The notes under the pieces were generated by a model that worked only from the letters and a program-made list of their open reading frames with translations, searched no databases and was not told the origin of the DNA. The translations under genes and the position numbers were made by a program. A stretch of 64,000 bases of DNA from Bradyrhizobium sp. CB1015 (GTDB taxonomy: Bacteria > Pseudomonadota > Alphaproteobacteria > Rhizobiales > Xanthobacteraceae): contig NZ_CP104174.1 in NCBI RefSeq assembly GCF_025200925.1, positions 2,976,001-3,040,000 of the forward strand, given 5' to 3'. Shown piece by piece: positions 12,146 through 18,602 of this stretch. Positions within the stretch are counted from its first letter, which is position 1, and each line of letters opens with the position of its first letter.

Positions 12146-13234
12146 ATGTCCTTCAACACTTTCGGCCACCTGTTCCGCGTCACCACCTTCGGCGAGAGCC
12201 ATGGGGTGGCGATCGGCTGCGTGGTCGACGGCTGCCCGCCGATGATCCCGCTCACCGAGGCCGACATCCAGCGGGATCTCGACCGCCGCCGTCCAGGCCA
12301 GTCGCGCTTCACCACCCAGCGCCAGGAGCCGGACCAGGTGAAGATCCTCTCCGGCGTGATGGCGCATCCGGAGACCGGCGTGCAGGTGACGACGGGCACG
12401 CCGATCGGCCTTTTGATCGAGAACACCGACCAGCGCTCGAAGGATTATTCCGAGATCAAGGACAAGTTTCGTCCCGGTCATGCCGACTTCACCTATGAGG
12501 CGAAGTACGGCCTGCGCGATTATCGCGGCGGCGGGCGCTCCTCGGCGCGCGAGACCGCGATGCGCGTTGCCGCCGGCGCCATCGCACGGAAAGTGCTGCC
12601 GGACGTGAAGGTGCGGGGCGCGCTGGTGCAGATCGGCCCGCACAAGATCGATCGCGACAAGTGGGACTGGGACGAGGTCGCCAGAAATCCGTTCTTCTGT
12701 CCCGACAAGGACAAGGCCGCGTTCTTCGAGACCTATCTCGACGGCATCCGCAAGAGCGGCTCCTCGATCGGCGCGGTGATCGAGGTCGTCGCCGAAGGCG
12801 TGCCGGCAGGTCTCGGCGCGCCGATCTACGCTAAGCTCGATTCCGATCTGGCGGGCGCGATGATGACCATCAATGCGGTGAAGGGCGTCGAGATCGGCGC
12901 CGGCTTCGGCGCGGCAGAACTGACTGGTGAGGAGAATGCCGACGAGATGCGCTCCGGCAATGACGGCACGCGCTTCCTCTCCAACCACGCCGGCGGCGTG
13001 CTGGGCGGCATCTCCACCGGACAGCCCGTGGTGGTGCGTTTCGCGGTGAAGCCGACCTCGTCGATCCTGCAGCCGCGTCTCACCGTCGATCGCCAAGGCA
13101 CCGAGACCGAGATCTTCACCAAGGGCCGCCATGACCCCTGCGTCGGCATCCGTGCCGTTCCCGTCGGCGAGGCCATGATGGCCTGCGTGCTCGCCGATCA
13201 CTTCCTGCGTGATCGCGGGCAGGTGGGACGTTGA
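12146..13234 (+). CDS. aroC: Chorismate synthase
   Basis: The 362-residue protein is a full Aro[18 protein letters not shown] at the N-terminus, [26 protein letters not shown] and [18 protein letters not shown], covering the FMN- and substrate-binding histidines and arginines. It makes chorismate from 5-enolpyruvylshikimate-3-phosphate with reduced FMN, the last common step of aromatic amino-acid synthesis. Length is normal. It ends just before a small inverted repeat (CACCTCTCCC/GGGAGAGGTG, 13241-13261). Confidence 0.96.
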
Positions 13235-13330
13235 CTTCTTCACCTCTCCCAGGGAGAGGTGAACTTGCCGTCGCGGCACTAGCTCTCCGTGCAGCTTGAC
13301 GACTCCGCAACTTCGTTCGCAAATGCGGCC

Positions 13331-14521
13331 ATGAACAGCTCCGAGCTTCAGCGCATCTGCAACTGGCTGATCGACGGCGCCTGGGCGGCGCAGGAGCCGG
13401 CCGTAGGGATTGCCCATTTCTGCGAACGTCTGGTCGCGGCCGGCCTGCCGCTGACGCGTTTCGGCATCTTCATCCGCACGCTGCATCCCGAAGTCTTCGG
13501 CCGCAACTTCATCTGGCGGCAGGGGCAGGGGGTTGAAATCGGCAGCGTCGATTTCGAGATCCTGGACACGCCCCAATTCGCCCGCAGCCCGCTCCGCGTC
13601 GTGTTCGAGCAGGGGATCGAGGTCCGGGGACGCGCAAGCGATGCAAACAGCAAGCGATTTCCGTTCCTCGAGGACATGCGCGCCGAAGGCGCCACCGACT
13701 ATATCGCGGTGCCGGTGCCTTTTCTCGACGGCTCCATCCACGCGACGAGCTGGATCACGCAGCAGCCCGGTGGCTTCAGCGACGACGACATCGCGGTGAT
13801 CCGAACCGTCATCGCGCCGCTGGCGCGCATCAGCGAGATCATCACCATGCGCCGCACCGCCGAGATGCTGCTCGACACCTATGTCGGCAACCGCGCCGGC
13901 GCGCGCATCCTCGGCGGCCAGATCCGCCGCGGTCACAACGACACCATGCAGGCTGCGATCTGGCTGTCCGATCTGCGCGGCTTCACCGCGCTGTCGGACC
14001 GGCTGCCGCCCGAGACGGTGGTCCAGATCCTCAATCATTATTTCGACTGTCAGGTCGCCGCAATTCGCGATCATGGCGGCGAGGTGTTGAAGTTCATGGG
14101 CGACGGCCTGCTCGCCGTGTTTCCGATCGACGAATATGTCGGCGATGCCGCCCATGTCTGCGCGGGCGTGCTGGAGGCGGCGCGTGAATCCCGCGCCAGC
14201 GTCGAAGCGCTCGCCGTTCCGGTCGGGGATGCCGTCGAGCGCTTCCGTTTCGGCGTCGCGCTGCACGTCGGCAACATCCTCTACGGCAATATCGGCGGCG
14301 GCAACCGGCTGGACTTCACCTGCATCGGCCCAGCGGTCAATCTCGCCGCAAGGCTGGAGAAGATCACGGGACGCCTGGGTCGCACCGTCGTCGCTTCGGA
14401 AGGTTTCGCCAATGCCTGCCGTCACGACTGGCACGAGCTCGGCGAATTTCCGATCGCGGGATTTTCCAGGGCGCAGCGCGTGTACGGGCTAGCGGAGGAG
14501 ACGCAGGCGTTGGTCGGGTGA
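13331..14521 (+). CDS. Class III adenylate/guanylate cyclase with N-terminal sensor-like domain
   Basis: From ATG 13331 (MNSSELQRICNWL) there are 396 residues. The C-terminal half is a class III cyclase domain: IWLSDLRGFTALSDRLP has the first metal Asp, GGEVLKFMGDGLLAVFP has the second, and GNRLDFTCIGPAVNLAARLE carries the substrate-specificity and transition-state region. The N-terminal 190 residues resemble a GAF-like sensory domain without a membrane segment. It probably makes cAMP in the cytoplasm. It is convergent with clpS (three bases apart). An in-frame GTG at 13289 would add 14 residues but looks less likely. Confidence 0.85.
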   Translation: MNSSELQRICNWLIDGAWAAQEPAVGIAHFCERLVAAGLPLTRFGIFIRTLHPEVFGRNFIWRQGQGVEIGSVDFEILDTPQFARSPLRVVFEQGIEVRGRASDANSKRFPFLEDMRAEGATDYIAVPVPFLDGSIHATSWITQQPGGFSDDDIAVIRTVIAPLARISEIITMRRTAEMLLDTYVGNRAGARILGGQIRRGHNDTMQAAIWLSDLRGFTALSDRLPPETVVQILNHYFDCQVAAIRDHGGEVLKFMGDGLLAVFPIDEYVGDAAHVCAGVLEAARESRASVEALAVPVGDAVERFRFGVALHVGNILYGNIGGGNRLDFTCIGPAVNLAARLEKITGRLGRTVVASEGFANACRHDWHELGEFPIAGFSRAQRVYGLAEETQALVG

Positions 14522-14524
14522 GCC

Positions 14525-14830
14525 TTATTCCTCAGGCTCTGTCGTGAACAATAGCGGATAGCCCTTGGCCCGGCCGGCATCGGTGGCGCGCGTGGCCTTG
14601 GTCTCGGCGACGTCCTTGGTGAACACGGCGACGACGCAGGCGCCAAGCTTGTGGGCCGTAATCATCACCTTGTAGGCCTGAGCCTCGGTCATGCGGAATT
14701 CGGCCTTCAGCACCATCGTGACGAACTCACGCGGCGTGTAGTCGTCGTTGATCAGGATGACCTTGTGCAGCTTCGGTCGCTCGACCTTGGTCTTCGTCCT
14801 GGTTTTCGGCTTGGTAACGGCGTCGTTCAT
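14525..14830 (-). CDS. clpS: ClpS-family adaptor of ClpAP protease
   Basis: The 101-residue protein has the ClpS core: HKVILINDDYTPREFV, the MVL hydrophobic pocket segment and KVMITAHKLGACVVAVFTKDVAETKA. ClpS delivers N-degron substrates with Phe, Leu, Trp or Tyr N-termini to ClpA. Alphaproteobacteria often carry a second ClpS. This copy lies away from clpA and 42 bases downstream of the DUF190 gene in a minus-strand operon that begins with a fluoride riboswitch. It may therefore be read through from that promoter or have its own. Confidence 0.85.
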   Translation of the reverse strand: MNDAVTKPKTRTKTKVERPKLHKVILINDDYTPREFVTMVLKAEFRMTEAQAYKVMITAHKLGACVVAVFTKDVAETKATRATDAGRAKGYPLLFTTEPEE

Positions 14831-14872
14831 TCCGCCTCCTGGACACGGCGGCTTGGGTTCCCTGCCGGGCGA

Positions 14873-15214
14873 TCAGCCTGCGGCCTTCGCACCATATTGC
14901 AGGACCTGCACCTTCTCCAAGGTGATCAGCCCGCTCGACATCATGCCGTCCAGGATGGGCAGGAATGCATTGATGTTGTCCTCGCTGTCGACGATCTCGA
15001 TCAGCAGCGGCAGGTCTTCCGACAGCCGCAGGATCTTCGAGGTGTGCAGCCGGCTGGACTTGCCGAAGCCCATCGGACCGCGCAGCACGGTGGCGCCGGC
15101 CAGATGTCGCTCGCGCGCGGTCATCACAATCGCCTCATAGAGCGGCTTGCCGTCATAATGGTCGCTCTCGCCGATGAAGATCCGGAGCGAAACAGCCTGA
15201 TCGGGGATTTGCAT
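14873..15214 (-). CDS. DUF190 family protein, linked to CrcB
   Basis: From ATG 15214 (MQIPDQAVSLRIFIGESD) the protein has 113 residues. The fold is PII-like. GKPLYEAIVMTARERHLAGATVLRGPMG and LPLLIEIVDSEDNI are the conserved segments of DUF190, a family often found next to crcB. Its biochemical role is unknown; a ligand-sensing or accessory role for fluoride export is inferred from context only. It starts two bases after the end of the upstream crcB gene, implying translational coupling. Confidence 0.85.
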   Translation of the reverse strand: MQIPDQAVSLRIFIGESDHYDGKPLYEAIVMTARERHLAGATVLRGPMGFGKSSRLHTSKILRLSEDLPLLIEIVDSEDNINAFLPILDGMMSSGLITLEKVQVLQYGAKAAG

Positions 15215-15216
15215 GC

Positions 15217-15639
15217 TCAGCTCCTTGTCAAGCGATTGTAGCGGCTCGCCATCATATGCCCTGCCCATACCGACACCAGCCAGCAGATCACGGACGCCGC
15301 GACATAGGCGAGCGCGGTGTACTTCATGCTGCCGTGGAGCAGGCGGAAGGTCTCCAGGCTGAAGGCCGAGAAGGTGGTGTAGCCGCCGCAGAACCCGGTC
15401 ATGACGAACTGCCGGTGCTCGGGCCGGGCCAGCATGCGGCCGTCGGGGCCGGTCAGCGTCGCGTAGAAGCCGATGATCAGCGATCCCGTCGCGTTGATGA
15501 ACAGGGTCGCGAAGGGAAAGCCCGGCCCCGTGTCGAGCGCAAGCCCGACCAGATAACGCGTCAGGCCGCCGACGACGCTGCCGGCGGCGACCCAGGCATA
15601 GAGCAGCGCAATGCGCCAACGATCGGCGGGAGAGTTCAT
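15217..15639 (-). CDS. crcB: Fluoride ion channel CrcB/FluC, second gene
   Basis: The 140-residue protein has four membrane helices and the family motifs GSVVGGLTRYLVG, ATLFINATGSLIIGF and GFCGGYTTFSAFSLE. The last holds both Phe-box residues that line the fluoride pathway. FluC proteins work as antiparallel dimers in the inner membrane, and where two genes are adjacent the pair usually forms a heterodimer. It follows the first crcB by six bases. Fluoride export is well established for the family, and here the upstream fluoride riboswitch supports it. Confidence 0.92.
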   Translation of the reverse strand: MNSPADRWRIALLYAWVAAGSVVGGLTRYLVGLALDTGPGFPFATLFINATGSLIIGFYATLTGPDGRMLARPEHRQFVMTGFCGGYTTFSAFSLETFRLLHGSMKYTALAYVAASVICWLVSVWAGHMMASRYNRLTRS

Positions 15640-15645
15640 CGGCCG

Positions 15646-16032
15646 CTAGCCTCCCAGACCGTCTGCAAGGAGGAAGCCGCAACTGACAGCGGTGAGGCAC
15701 AGCCCGACTGAGAGCAAGATATTCCCGAGCGCATGCATCGGCTCGCTGCGCGCGAGCGTCAGCGTTTGCAGGCTGAACGAGGACACCGTGGTGTAGCAGC
15801 CGAGAAAACCGGTCACCGCGAACAGCCATGGAGTGGGCGCGGCGAAGGCCGAGCCGGGATGGGTCGCCAGCGCGCCGAACATGCCGATCAGGAAGGCGCC
15901 GGTGACGTTGATGGTCATGGTGCCCCACGGAAACGTTTCGCCCAGCCGCCGCGCGATCACACCGGAGACGAAATAGCGCGCGCAGCCCCCGAGGGCGCTG
16001 CCGATCATGATCGCAACTGCCCCGCTCAGCAC
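15646..16032 (-). CDS. crcB: Fluoride ion channel CrcB/FluC, first gene
   Basis: The 128-residue, four-helix protein has GSALGGCARYFVSG, GTMTINVTGAFLIGM and GFLGCYTTVSSFSLQ. Compared with its neighbour the first Phe of the TTFSxF box is replaced by Val (TTVSSF), so the two subunits are not equivalent. A heterodimer with 15217-15639 is likely. It lies 19 bases after the MFS gene, inside the riboswitch-led operon. The pair may come from an old duplication followed by specialisation. Confidence 0.92.
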   Translation of the reverse strand: MLSGAVAIMIGSALGGCARYFVSGVIARRLGETFPWGTMTINVTGAFLIGMFGALATHPGSAFAAPTPWLFAVTGFLGCYTTVSSFSLQTLTLARSEPMHALGNILLSVGLCLTAVSCGFLLADGLGG

Positions 16033-16051
16033 GATGAACCGTCCCCCGTCA

Positions 16052-17281
16052 TCACTTGCTCGCTACCGCAAGACCGTTGCCGACCGCAAGCAATCCCACC
16101 ACCGAAACCAGCGCGAAGCCGAGCCCGGCAAGAAACGTTCCCGCCGGTCCATAGGCGTCCCACAGCGCACCCGCGATCACGCTCGCAGCCAGCAAGGCAA
16201 GCCCGGTGAACAGGTTGAAATAGCCGAAGGCGGTGCCGCGCAAGGCGGGCGGCGCGGCGTCGGCGACAAGGGCGGAGAGCAGCCCCTGCGACAGCCCCAT
16301 ATGCAGCCCCCACAGCACGACGCCGAGCGCGAGGCCAGCCAGATTCGGCAACAGCGCCAGCACGAGGTCGGCGCCGGCGAGGAAGACGAGGCCGAGCGCG
16401 AGCAGGCCGGTCCGGTTGATTCGGTCCGAGAGCACGCCGGCCGGATAGGCCGAGAGCGCGTAGACGACATTCATCAGTACCAGCACGGCCGGCACCCACA
16501 TCACATTGAGGCCGATGTTCTGCGCGCGCAGGATCAGGAAGGCCTCGCTGAAGCGCGCGAGCGTGAACACCACGCCCACGGCGACGACGCGCCAATAGAC
16601 CGCTCCGAGCTGGCGCATCGCGGCGAGATTGAGCGGATTTTCCGCAGGTTTTCGGCTCGGATCGGGCTCCGGCTCCTTCACCGCGAACGCGATCAACCCA
16701 AAGGACAGGAATGCCGGCAGCACCGCCACCCAGAATACGAGGGCGAAATTGTCTGCCGTCCACCACATCAGGCCGATCGCCGCGAGCGGCCCGACGAAGG
16801 CGCCGATCGTGTCGAGCGATTGCCGCAGGCCAAAGCTTGCGCCGCGCAGGCCGACGGGGGCGATATCGGCGATCAGCGCATCGCGCGGCGCGCCGCGAAT
16901 GCCCTTGCCGACGCGATCGATGAAGCGCGCGGCAACCAGCCATCCGACGCTGGGCGCGAGCGGGAACAGCGGCTTGGTGAAGGCGGCCAGCCCATAGCCG
17001 AGCGCGGCGAGCAGCTTGCGGCGGCCGAGCCAGTCCGACAGCGCACCGGAGAAGATCTTGGTGATCGAGGCGGTCGCCTCGGCAATGCCCTCGATGAAGC
17101 CGACGGTGAGCGTGGAGGCGCCGAGCACGGTGACGAGATAGACCGGCAGCAGCGCGTGGATCATCTCGGAGGAGATGTCCATCAGCATCGAGACGAAGCC
17201 GAGCACCCAGATTCCCCTGGGCAGCGTGGTGCGCACGGCCTTCGGTGTCGTCATCGTCACGTCTTCGTCGTCCCCTGGCAT
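16052..17281 (-). CDS. MFS transporter, first gene of fluoride-riboswitch operon
   Basis: From ATG 17281 (MPGDDEDV) the protein has 409 residues; ATG 17254 is also possible. It has about 12 membrane helices, with the MFS loop motif GALSDWLGRRK between helices 2 and 3 and the related GVLSDRINRTG between helices 8 and 9. FIDRVGKGIRGAPRDALIAD is typical of a bacterial MFS subgroup without a firmly known substrate. Being first behind a fluoride riboswitch, it may export fluoride or a fluoride-stress metabolite, or replace one. This is inference; no substrate can be read from the sequence. Confidence 0.85.
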   Translation of the reverse strand: MPGDDEDVTMTTPKAVRTTLPRGIWVLGFVSMLMDISSEMIHALLPVYLVTVLGASTLTVGFIEGIAEATASITKIFSGALSDWLGRRKLLAALGYGLAAFTKPLFPLAPSVGWLVAARFIDRVGKGIRGAPRDALIADIAPVGLRGASFGLRQSLDTIGAFVGPLAAIGLMWWTADNFALVFWVAVLPAFLSFGLIAFAVKEPEPDPSRKPAENPLNLAAMRQLGAVYWRVVAVGVVFTLARFSEAFLILRAQNIGLNVMWVPAVLVLMNVVYALSAYPAGVLSDRINRTGLLALGLVFLAGADLVLALLPNLAGLALGVVLWGLHMGLSQGLLSALVADAAPPALRGTAFGYFNLFTGLALLAASVIAGALWDAYGPAGTFLAGLGFALVSVVGLLAVGNGLAVASK

Positions 17282-17307
17282 TCGCTCGCCGACCTTCGTC
17301 ATCAGGC

Positions 17308-17349
17308 AACAAAAAACCCGCCATCGGCGGGTATGTCCATGCTCCCGCC
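17308..17349 (-). terminator. Riboswitch-controlled intrinsic terminator with antiterminator
   Basis: On the minus strand CCCGCC-GAT-GGCGGG is followed by six T (genome 17311-17331), a classic intrinsic terminator located before the MFS start. The 5' arm CCCGCC can instead pair with GGCGGG further upstream (genome 17344-17349), giving an antiterminator. This mutually exclusive pairing is the usual expression platform of a transcriptional ON riboswitch. Confidence 0.8.
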
Positions 17350-17380
17350 AAAGGCCGAGGCTCAAGATGCCTCTCCTCCA

Positions 17381-17444
17381 GCAGGAGTCATCAGCCCACG
17401 AGGTCATCGACCGCCGGGCGGTTGTCGGGGGACTCCATCCCCAT
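17381..17444 (-). promoter_or_regulatory. Fluoride riboswitch (crcB RNA motif)
   Basis: On the minus strand GGGGATGGAGTCCCCC (from 17442) forms the first hairpin with loop ATGGAGT. CGCCC and GGGC (17416-17420, 17394-17397) form the second stem, and the conserved CTGATGACTCCTGC (17394 to 17381) closes the aptamer. Loop bases GGAGT pair with ACTCC of this tail as the diagnostic pseudoknot. These elements and their order match the known crcB motif, whose 3' part reads GGGCTGATGGCCTCTAC in Thermotoga. It precedes an MFS gene and two crcB genes, and a terminator lies between. A TTGTCC with a weak -10 (TAGGGT) is found about 30 bases upstream. Confidence 0.92.
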
Positions 17445-17513
17445 CTGTGCGACCAACCCTAGCATGGAAATCGTGCCGGACAAGTGGGCGGGACCGTGCC
17501 TCCACTGGCAGCT

Positions 17514-17590
17514 GTCATTCCGGGGCGATGCGCAGCATCGAACCCGGAATCTCGAGATTCCGGTCCTCGCTTCGCGAGTCCCGGAATGAC
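17514..17590. repeat. Palindromic repeat, family B, copy 2
   Basis: Its first 50 bases are identical to the copy at 11996. The right arm ends CCCGGAATGAC. It lies between the fluoride-operon promoter region and the divergent DUF1194 gene, so it separates two divergent promoters. Confidence 0.88.
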
Positions 17591-17747
17591 GGCTCATGTG
17601 ATCGCGCCTGTTCCCCCTTGTCATCGCTATGGCCAAACGACGGCAACACGCAGCAGCAATGCACTCGATTGTGAAGCGCGAGCGATCTTCGGCCTTTGCG
17701 GCAAGCCGATTGCATGTCACCATCGCGTCATACGACGGGAGACTGCG

Positions 17748-18602
17748 ATGCGTTTGCTGTTCTCGATCGGGGCTGTGCTGGTGGCCGGCATGTTTGCCGG
17801 AGGGGGCATCGCGGCACCAGGACCCAAATTCGAATCGTCCAGAAATCAACCGCAGCGGCTTGCGGCCGACAAGGACGCGCAGACCGTCGATGTCGAGCTG
17901 ATCCTCGCGGTCGACGTGTCCTACTCCATGGACATGGACGAGCTCGCGATCCAGCGCGAGGGCTACGCCCAGGCGATCCAGTCGAAGGAGTTCCTGCAGG
18001 CGCTGAAGCTCGGCCCGAACGGCCGTATCGCGGTGACCTATTTCGAGTGGGCCGCCTCCAGCGACCAGAAAATCATCATTCCCTGGCGGCTGGTCGATGG
18101 TCCGGAGACGGCGGACGCGGTTGCCGCCGAGATCATGAAGACGCCGATCCGGCGCGCTTCGCGCACCTCGATCTCCGGCGCGATCAACTTCGCGATGCCG
18201 CTGTTCGACGAGGATCCCTATCGCGGCCTGCGCCGTGTCATCGACATTTCCGGCGACGGTCCGAACAACAATGGCGGTCCGGTCACGGTGGCGCGCGATG
18301 CCGCCCTGGAGAAGGGCATCGTCATCAACGGCCTGCCGATCATGGTCAAGGAGCCGTCCTATTCGACCATGGATATCGACAATCTCGATTTCTACTACGA
18401 GGACTGTGTCATCGGGGGGCCGGGCTCCTTCGTCATCACGATCAAGGACCGCGACAAGTTCAAGGAAGCGATCCGCACCAAGCTGCTGATGGAAGTCGCC
18501 GGCCGCACGCCGGAGCGCCCGGTGATGCGCGTCGCCGACAAGGAGCCCCGCGTCAATTGCCTCATCGGCGAGAAGATCTGGTCCGATCGCTGGGGACGGT
18601 GA
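17748..18602 (+). CDS. DUF1194 protein, von Willebrand factor A-like
   Basis: From ATG 17748 behind GGGAGACTGCG the protein has 284 residues. A signal peptide covers roughly residues 1-23 (MRLLFSIGAVLVAGMFAGGG). The VWA-like domain begins VELILAVDVSYSMDMDE, with a DxSxS MIDAS metal site, and continues to ISGDGPNNNGGP. The family is exported and of unknown function; metal-dependent protein adhesion is inferred from the fold. It is divergent from the fluoride operon, with a family B repeat between. Confidence 0.88.
   Translation: MRLLFSIGAVLVAGMFAGGGIAAPGPKFESSRNQPQRLAADKDAQTVDVELILAVDVSYSMDMDELAIQREGYAQAIQSKEFLQALKLGPNGRIAVTYFEWAASSDQKIIIPWRLVDGPETADAVAAEIMKTPIRRASRTSISGAINFAMPLFDEDPYRGLRRVIDISGDGPNNNGGPVTVARDAALEKGIVINGLPIMVKEPSYSTMDIDNLDFYYEDCVIGGPGSFVITIKDRDKFKEAIRTKLLMEVAGRTPERPVMRVADKEPRVNCLIGEKIWSDRWGR

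Follow-up and report, generated by a model that had tools for sequence, protein, structure and literature searches.

A riboswitch-led fluoride operon headed by an MFS transporter gene in one Bradyrhizobium clade, and its probably resident neighbour clpS2

We analysed a 64,000-nucleotide stretch of the Bradyrhizobium sp. CB1015 genome (NZ_CP104174.1, positions 2,976,001 to 3,040,000 of the forward strand; hereafter the window). On its minus strand a fluoride riboswitch leader is followed by genes for an MFS transporter, two FluC channel subunits (crcB1 and crcB2) and a DUF190 protein, and then by clpS2. Taken as a whole, the explanation that we consider likely is a single entry of a fluoride module, a transcriptional switch in its leader, a FluC heterodimer, an accessory MFS transporter, and a clpS2 with a promoter embedded in its neighbour. 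The four-gene module (leader, MFS, crcB1, crcB2, DUF190) would have inserted once, in the ancestor of one Bradyrhizobium clade, between a DUF1194 gene and the resident clpS2. The latter would be an adjoining gene driven from within the 3′ end of duf190, with read-through from the operon as a possible extra. A first-pass annotation of the window had proposed both a riboswitch-led MFS-crcB-crcB-DUF190 operon, which stands, and a 'wider fluoride response' perhaps including ClpS, which is not supported. Its gaps between the genes, from the leader-side MFS onward to clpS (19, 6, 2 and 42 bases), are correct, and Pfam confirms MFS_1, two CRCB, DUF190 and ClpS in the operon region. The features, in the order of transcription, are:

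17456..17483 (−), predicted operon promoter: TTGTCC (17483-17478), 16 bases, then TAGGGT (17461-17456) with TGC before it; TTG-spacer-TGnTA conserved in leaders
17375..17451 (−), fluoride riboswitch aptamer (RF01734)
17341..17349 (−), GGCGGGAGC, predicted switching strand, paired with ACTCC in the off state and with the 5′ arm of the terminator in the on state, from folds of 83 leaders
17316..17332 (−), intrinsic terminator of the expression platform, then a T run (terminator scan)
16052..17281 (−), MFS transporter gene (PF07690, E 5e-46, residues 28-364); start uncertain, with an in-frame GTG at 17260 behind AGGGGAC as the alternative to 17281
15646..16032 (−), crcB1, FluC subunit with Val for the first Phe-box residue (PF02537; NF010799 above cut-off)
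15217..15639 (−), crcB2, FluC subunit with both Phe-box residues present (PF02537)
14873..15214 (−), DUF190 (COG1993) gene, duf190 (PF02641, E 1e-40)
14891..14920 (−), predicted clpS2 promoter in the 3′ coding end of duf190: TTGGAG (14920-14915), 18 bases, TATGGT (14896-14891); from conservation, a codon test and gene remnants
14525..14830 (−), clpS2, probably an older resident of the site, outside the fluoride module (PF02617, 85.4 bits; NF009564, 202.1 bits vs 143; synteny)

The Rfam fluoride riboswitch model (RF01734, the crcB motif) matched the leader at 17451-17375 on the minus strand across the full model (1-64), with an E-value of 1.4e-11 and 52.2 bits against a gathering score of 34, which upholds the earlier identification of this RNA. 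The leader is like the known class in its full-length aptamer and in having both pseudoknot strands (GGAGT, 17436-17432; ACTCC, 17388-17384). It is the sole match: no second one was reported across the 8.41 Mb genome. Its fold beats 199 of 200 shuffles (z −3.48). From its sequence the leader is predicted to bind fluoride and to raise downstream expression.

To follow the locus through its relatives, we used a genus sample of 146 genomes, with clpS2 in 145, MFS (at E ≤1e-100) in 114 and RF01734 in 111. The linked set comprises 84 loci: all 78 of the 146 with an MFS ≥83% identical, and 6 from a family sample. The unlinked set is a hand-picked, non-random choice of 17 loci out of 67 (the 145 clpS2 genomes minus the 78 linked). 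The aptamer core (≤3 mismatches) is present in 83 of the 84 loci with an operonic MFS, and ahead of it the TTG-spacer-TGnTA arrangement recurs in 82 of those 83 leaders (L113 is without it). The predicted operon promoter agrees with the TTG-N(16-18)-TATA and TGnTA forms reported for Bradyrhizobium in the portion of PMC4842269 consulted. Two points weigh against this picture of the leader. The linked locus L125 has no riboswitch, by core search or by Rfam, and a generic sigma-70 scan (≥9 of 12 consensus letters) of 14300-17900 returned zero promoters, so that both predicted promoters fail it.

Between the aptamer and the MFS gene lies an element unmentioned in the first-pass annotation, a terminator of the form ACCCGCC-GAT-GGCGGGT followed by T's (17332-17316). 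A scan of the window sequence alone is weak (1 terminator found vs 1.9 expected in shuffles); the terminator becomes convincing because it is conserved in all 83 leaders that have the aptamer core, and on that conservation a chance terminator was dismissed. When folds were stopped at the terminator 5′ arm, ACTCC paired with the GGCGGGAGC strand in 83/83 leaders. When ACTCC was held unpaired, mimicking the fluoride-bound pseudoknot, a GGCGGG-CCCGCC antiterminator pairing formed in 60/83. Folds of the full-length leader gave the terminator in 81/83. In controls with shuffled linkers, both pairings appeared, under a looser rule, in 11/83. Pair variation in the switch is small (GGCGGG to GGTGGG in five of the 83), so covariation is little informative here. 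The 23 of 83 constrained folds in which the antiterminator did not form count against the switch.

With both states in 60 of 83 leaders, the mutually exclusive pairings lead us to predict an expression platform able to couple the aptamer to transcription. We infer a three-helix mechanism. In the absence of fluoride, ACTCC in the aptamer would pair with GGCGGGAGC, the terminator would form and transcription would halt ahead of MFS. With fluoride, ACTCC would be tied up in the pseudoknot, which would leave GGCGGG free to pair with the 5′ arm of the terminator and let RNA polymerase continue. According to the part of PMC2864571 consulted, many crcB RNAs have a transcription-terminator platform, as in the window leader, and in many the terminator overlaps the motif, whereas here it lies downstream, with GGCGGGAGC as the predicted linking strand.

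The genes around the operon serve as landmarks:

17748..18602 (+), divergent DUF1194 gene, left-hand landmark (PF06707); start read from the sequence
13289..14521 (+), cyclase-domain gene, right-hand landmark (PF00211)
12146-13234, aroC, next after the cyclase gene

In all 84 linked Bradyrhizobium loci the first gene to follow the leader site is MFS, which has clpS2 downstream of it and DUF1194 on its other side; the cyclase gene falls inside the fetched stretch in 67 of them and in 16 of the 17 unlinked loci. The middle block varies: 65 loci have crcB1-crcB2-DUF190 (the double cassette) and 19 have a single, different crcB. When the MFS of L183 (see below) served as query, the locus also came up in many Bradyrhizobium records, including strains recorded as B. 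diazoefficiens, B. japonicum and B. yuanmingense.

A tree of DUF1194 and clpS2 DNA (FastTree, 102 rows, 1,154 columns, 41 of 99 inner branches open) places the 84 linked loci on one side of a single branch (one change, SH 99), and one insertion therefore suffices. Single and double cassettes are intermixed on the same tree, with 13 changes, at least seven of them forced by starred branches, which suggests that the middle block has been exchanged among related strains. In the 19 single-cassette loci, crcB1-crcB2-DUF190 would have been swapped for one canonical crcB, with MFS, clpS2 and a promoter-bearing remnant of duf190 retained. Separate insertions for the two cassettes are disfavoured: the linked loci form one clade, and the single-crcB loci keep the duf190 remnant. 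The direction of the event, a module that arrived and was not lost, is our reading of these sequences; against it, the change counts on this tree and on the MFS tree described below are blind to gain versus loss.

Synteny indicates that clpS2 was probably resident before the operon arrived. Without the operon, it holds the same side of DUF1194 in 17/17 sampled unlinked loci, with the cyclase gene next in 16 and aroC in 15 (L167 and L177 are the loci where the cyclase gene and/or aroC are absent from the fetched stretch), and with 0.9 to 1.6 kb between DUF1194 and clpS2 in L174, L178 and L180. Among the loci read, clpS occurs with crcB/DUF190 or a riboswitch only in the clade whose site is occupied by clpS2 in any case. 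The best solved-sequence match to the window clpS2 is 4yjm (ClpS 2), over residues 6-101; unlike that known system, the window gene adjoins a fluoride operon and has its predicted promoter in the coding end of a neighbour.

The synteny of the 17 unlinked loci led us to drop ClpS as a dedicated fluoride gene from the position of leading view. A version of the idea in which ClpS2 genuinely belongs to the fluoride response, with the operon retained upstream since read-through lifts the N-degron adaptor during fluoride protein damage, seems to us unlikely but is backed by several observations. The MFS-clpS2 linkage holds in 84/84 loci of the clade. A simple scan of the 300 bases ahead of clpS2 found no terminator-like site in any of the 84, and ~42 bases part duf190 from clpS2; because no terminator-like site stands between the genes, read-through from the operon into clpS2 is possible, and with it extra clpS2 transcription under fluoride. 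In addition, clpS2 seems to have switched promoters on the arrival of the cassette, because a −10-like block precedes it in 9/18 unlinked loci and in 0/84 linked ones, counts that also suit a fluoride role. Finally, in L151 (genome G419) clpS2 is followed, 22 bases on (between tblastn matches), by an MFS gene that groups as sister to the one in the operon (SH-aLRT 87), at a site where no riboswitch or crcB was found. The L151 pair is unaccounted for by a view of clpS2 as a chance neighbour, and this, like the missing terminator, weighs against clpS2 as a simple resident; L151 may be an intermediate, or the two genes may have come together independently. Set against a fluoride role are the occupation of the site by clpS2 in every sampled locus without the operon, an operon in L183 that ends without clpS, and an embedded promoter that persists even after the loss of duf190. 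The proposed membership of ClpS in a wider fluoride response was thus not borne out, since the gene holds its site without the operon in the sampled relatives, is absent behind the operon in L183 and has a conserved predicted promoter of its own, and clpS2 as the older resident remains our preferred reading.

The inclusion of MFS in the operon, by comparison, is supported by its conserved order, by the same operon in another genus, and by its recurrence beside crcB and DUF190. L183 (genome G075), from another genus of the family, has a riboswitch leader and then MFS, crcB1, crcB2 and DUF190, with no clpS; in this genome, which is rated 5% contaminated, the leader is 85% identical to that of the window over 98 aligned columns, MFS 74%, crcB1 75%, crcB2 64% and DUF190 78%. 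Further afield, MFS, DUF190, crcB and crcB stand together in L196 (another family), and MFS, DUF190 and crcB in L268 (recorded as Alsobacter soli), both with no riboswitch at threshold. On an MFS tree of 79 hand-picked rows (a quick search without a mixture model, with long branches for L212, L209 and others), the fluoride label changes four times, at least three of these being forced by starred branches. Separate gains of the fluoride neighbourhood by MFS branches are the simple reading of this, with losses as the alternative. The solved sequences nearest to the window MFS, GLUT4 and NorA, are distant.

It is doubtful, in our judgement, that MFS is a passenger trapped between the leader and crcB with no role in fluoride tolerance. 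That account draws on how common the MFS family is beside other genes: 15/79 rows adjoin ChrB and 45/79 are classed as 'other', whilst only 18/79 are beside fluoride genes, 15 of those from one Bradyrhizobium clade, and these proportions weigh against membership of MFS in the fluoride module. The term MFS, moreover, has zero occurrences in the part of a fluoride review (PMC11139923) that was searched, as have major facilitator, DUF190 and Clp. A passenger does not sit well with the retention of MFS alongside both cassette types, or with relatives outside the clade (L183, L196 and L268) that adjoin crcB and DUF190, and with them the label changes forced on the tree. MFS is probably an accessory secondary transporter that eases some consequence of fluoride stress. 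We see only a slim chance that the family, or its fluoride-linked branches, directly export fluoride, HF or a metal-fluoride; if they did, the exporter would be a further class beside the FluC channels and CLC-F antiporters, riboswitch-driven, first in its operon and associated with crcB and DUF190 on separate branches of the MFS tree. Separately, L162, L181 and L182, from three genomes and similar in layout, have ChrB, MFS and an RND-type efflux gene pair (by open reading frame), then a fluoride riboswitch with another crcB; a ChrB_N Pfam match lies beside the MFS copy of L161, and a chrB-a RNA within MFS locus L200.

The predicted clpS2 promoter would start a transcript ~54 bases ahead of clpS2. 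The motif TTGGAG-N18-TAT[AG][AG]T, its spacing of 18 counted between the hexamers, occurs in 64/65 double-cassette loci, 18/19 single-cassette loci and 0/18 loci without the operon. It fits the RpoD-type TTG-N(16-18)-TATA-like boxes of Bradyrhizobium as given in the consulted text of PMC4842269, whilst failing the stricter generic scan. At the −35 box the Leu codon is TTG in 64/65 intact duf190 genes, although TTG makes up 7.0% of the 7,884 Leu codons in the genes of these operons; the other codons of the promoter are equally uniform (CAA 64/65, TAT 65/65, GGT 65/65). As controls we took 11 duf190 copies without clpS2 behind them, where TTG was found in 0/11 (two encode Ile) and GGT in 1 of 10 readable copies.

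The single-crcB loci provide a second line of evidence. In all 19, the 124-215 bases ahead of clpS2 are a decayed remnant of the duf190 3′ end, and every remnant (19/19) outscores all 100 of its shuffles against that end. Of the 134 columns across the remnants, 26 do not vary, and CTTGGAG is the sole stretch of seven such columns in a row (hypergeometric P ~5e-6, a guide only, since columns are not independent). The −10 box, here released from encoding Tyr-Gly, reads TATGAT in 13/19, TATAAT in 4/19 and TATGGT in 1/19. Activity of this promoter, and of the operon promoter, is what the conserved boxes suggest to us.

Several findings tell against a promoter here: TAT also occurs in 5 of 10 readable duf190 copies without clpS2; the duf190 3′ end is well conserved generally, and its codon uniformity may be partly shared descent; CTG replaces TTG in L150, which among the intact loci diverges most in MFS identity; and the single-cassette locus L096 is without the spaced motif. 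It might be argued, from the conservation of the peptide LEKVQVLQYG across DUF190 proteins generally and from the generic scan that missed the element, that TTGGAG-N18-TATGGT is no promoter and reflects a constraint acting on this end of duf190 through its protein or RNA. That is very unlikely, given that the 11 copies without clpS2 behind never use TTG and seldom GGT at these positions, and that 18 of the 19 loci with a dead gene still have both boxes, 18 bases apart (the −10 box being TATGAT or TATAAT in 17). Upstream of the predicted promoter, within duf190, GCATTCCTGCCC (window 14968-14957, minus strand) is nearly uniform in the 65 intact loci and largely retained in the remnants; it is possibly a binding site.

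The two FluC subunits of the double cassette are not equivalent. CrcB1 has Val as its first Phe-box residue in 65/65 loci, whilst both Phe-box residues are retained in CrcB2 (65/65) and in the single CrcB (19/19); when each subunit was examined for both pore Phe residues (F80 and F83 of Ec2), CrcB1 alone lacked the pair. Each pore of E. coli FluC draws on one F80 and one F83; among the F80 changes tabulated, Met alone keeps activity and Val does not figure; and natural FluC heterodimers may carry one dead pore (sections of PMC5417652 and PMC5636608). In the La and Sa heterodimer pairs, as excerpted from PMC5636608, three of the four central Phe are retained and one is replaced, as here, with Leu or Met in the replaced position where CrcB1 of the window has Val. 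CrcB1 and CrcB2 thus probably form a fluoride-channel heterodimer in which a single pore works, partnered by DUF190 in the cassette, and the single-crcB cassette probably encodes a two-pore homodimer.

The riboswitch and FluC are already known. The genes associated with fluoride riboswitches in the searched part of PMC11139923 are those for FluC, CLC-F, Na+/H+ antiporters, pyrophosphatase, haloacid-dehalogenase-type proteins, enolase and formate hydrogen lyase. The fluoride operon of Enterobacter cloacae FRM, in the consulted part of PMC5533749, is likewise riboswitch-led, with crcB and accessory genes; the content here is instead MFS, two crcB and DUF190. Full-text literature searches for a fluoride riboswitch together with DUF190, ClpS or 'MFS transporter' gave nothing, within partial coverage that includes few subscription papers. 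In the same partial literature a precedent did not turn up for the MFS-led layout, the interchangeable middle block or a clpS2 promoter within duf190. Elsewhere in the genomes sampled, fluoride riboswitches occur in clusters: G258 has at least 17 matches, 15 of them listed on one contig (C49, ~17.8-71 kb, with L005 inside); G021 also has at least 17; and G333 has 11, of which 8 are listed on one contig (C15, ~11-36 kb). These are possible fluoride-response islands.

If our reading is right, the locus supplies a clean sequence test of how a neighbouring gene can come to mimic a member of a regulon after a cassette lands beside it. The predicted clpS2 promoter would be an uncommon example of a promoter concealed within a coding region, one that outlives its dead host gene and then stands nearer to consensus. 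More broadly, one MFS family and DUF190 may be recurrent partners of FluC in fluoride biology.

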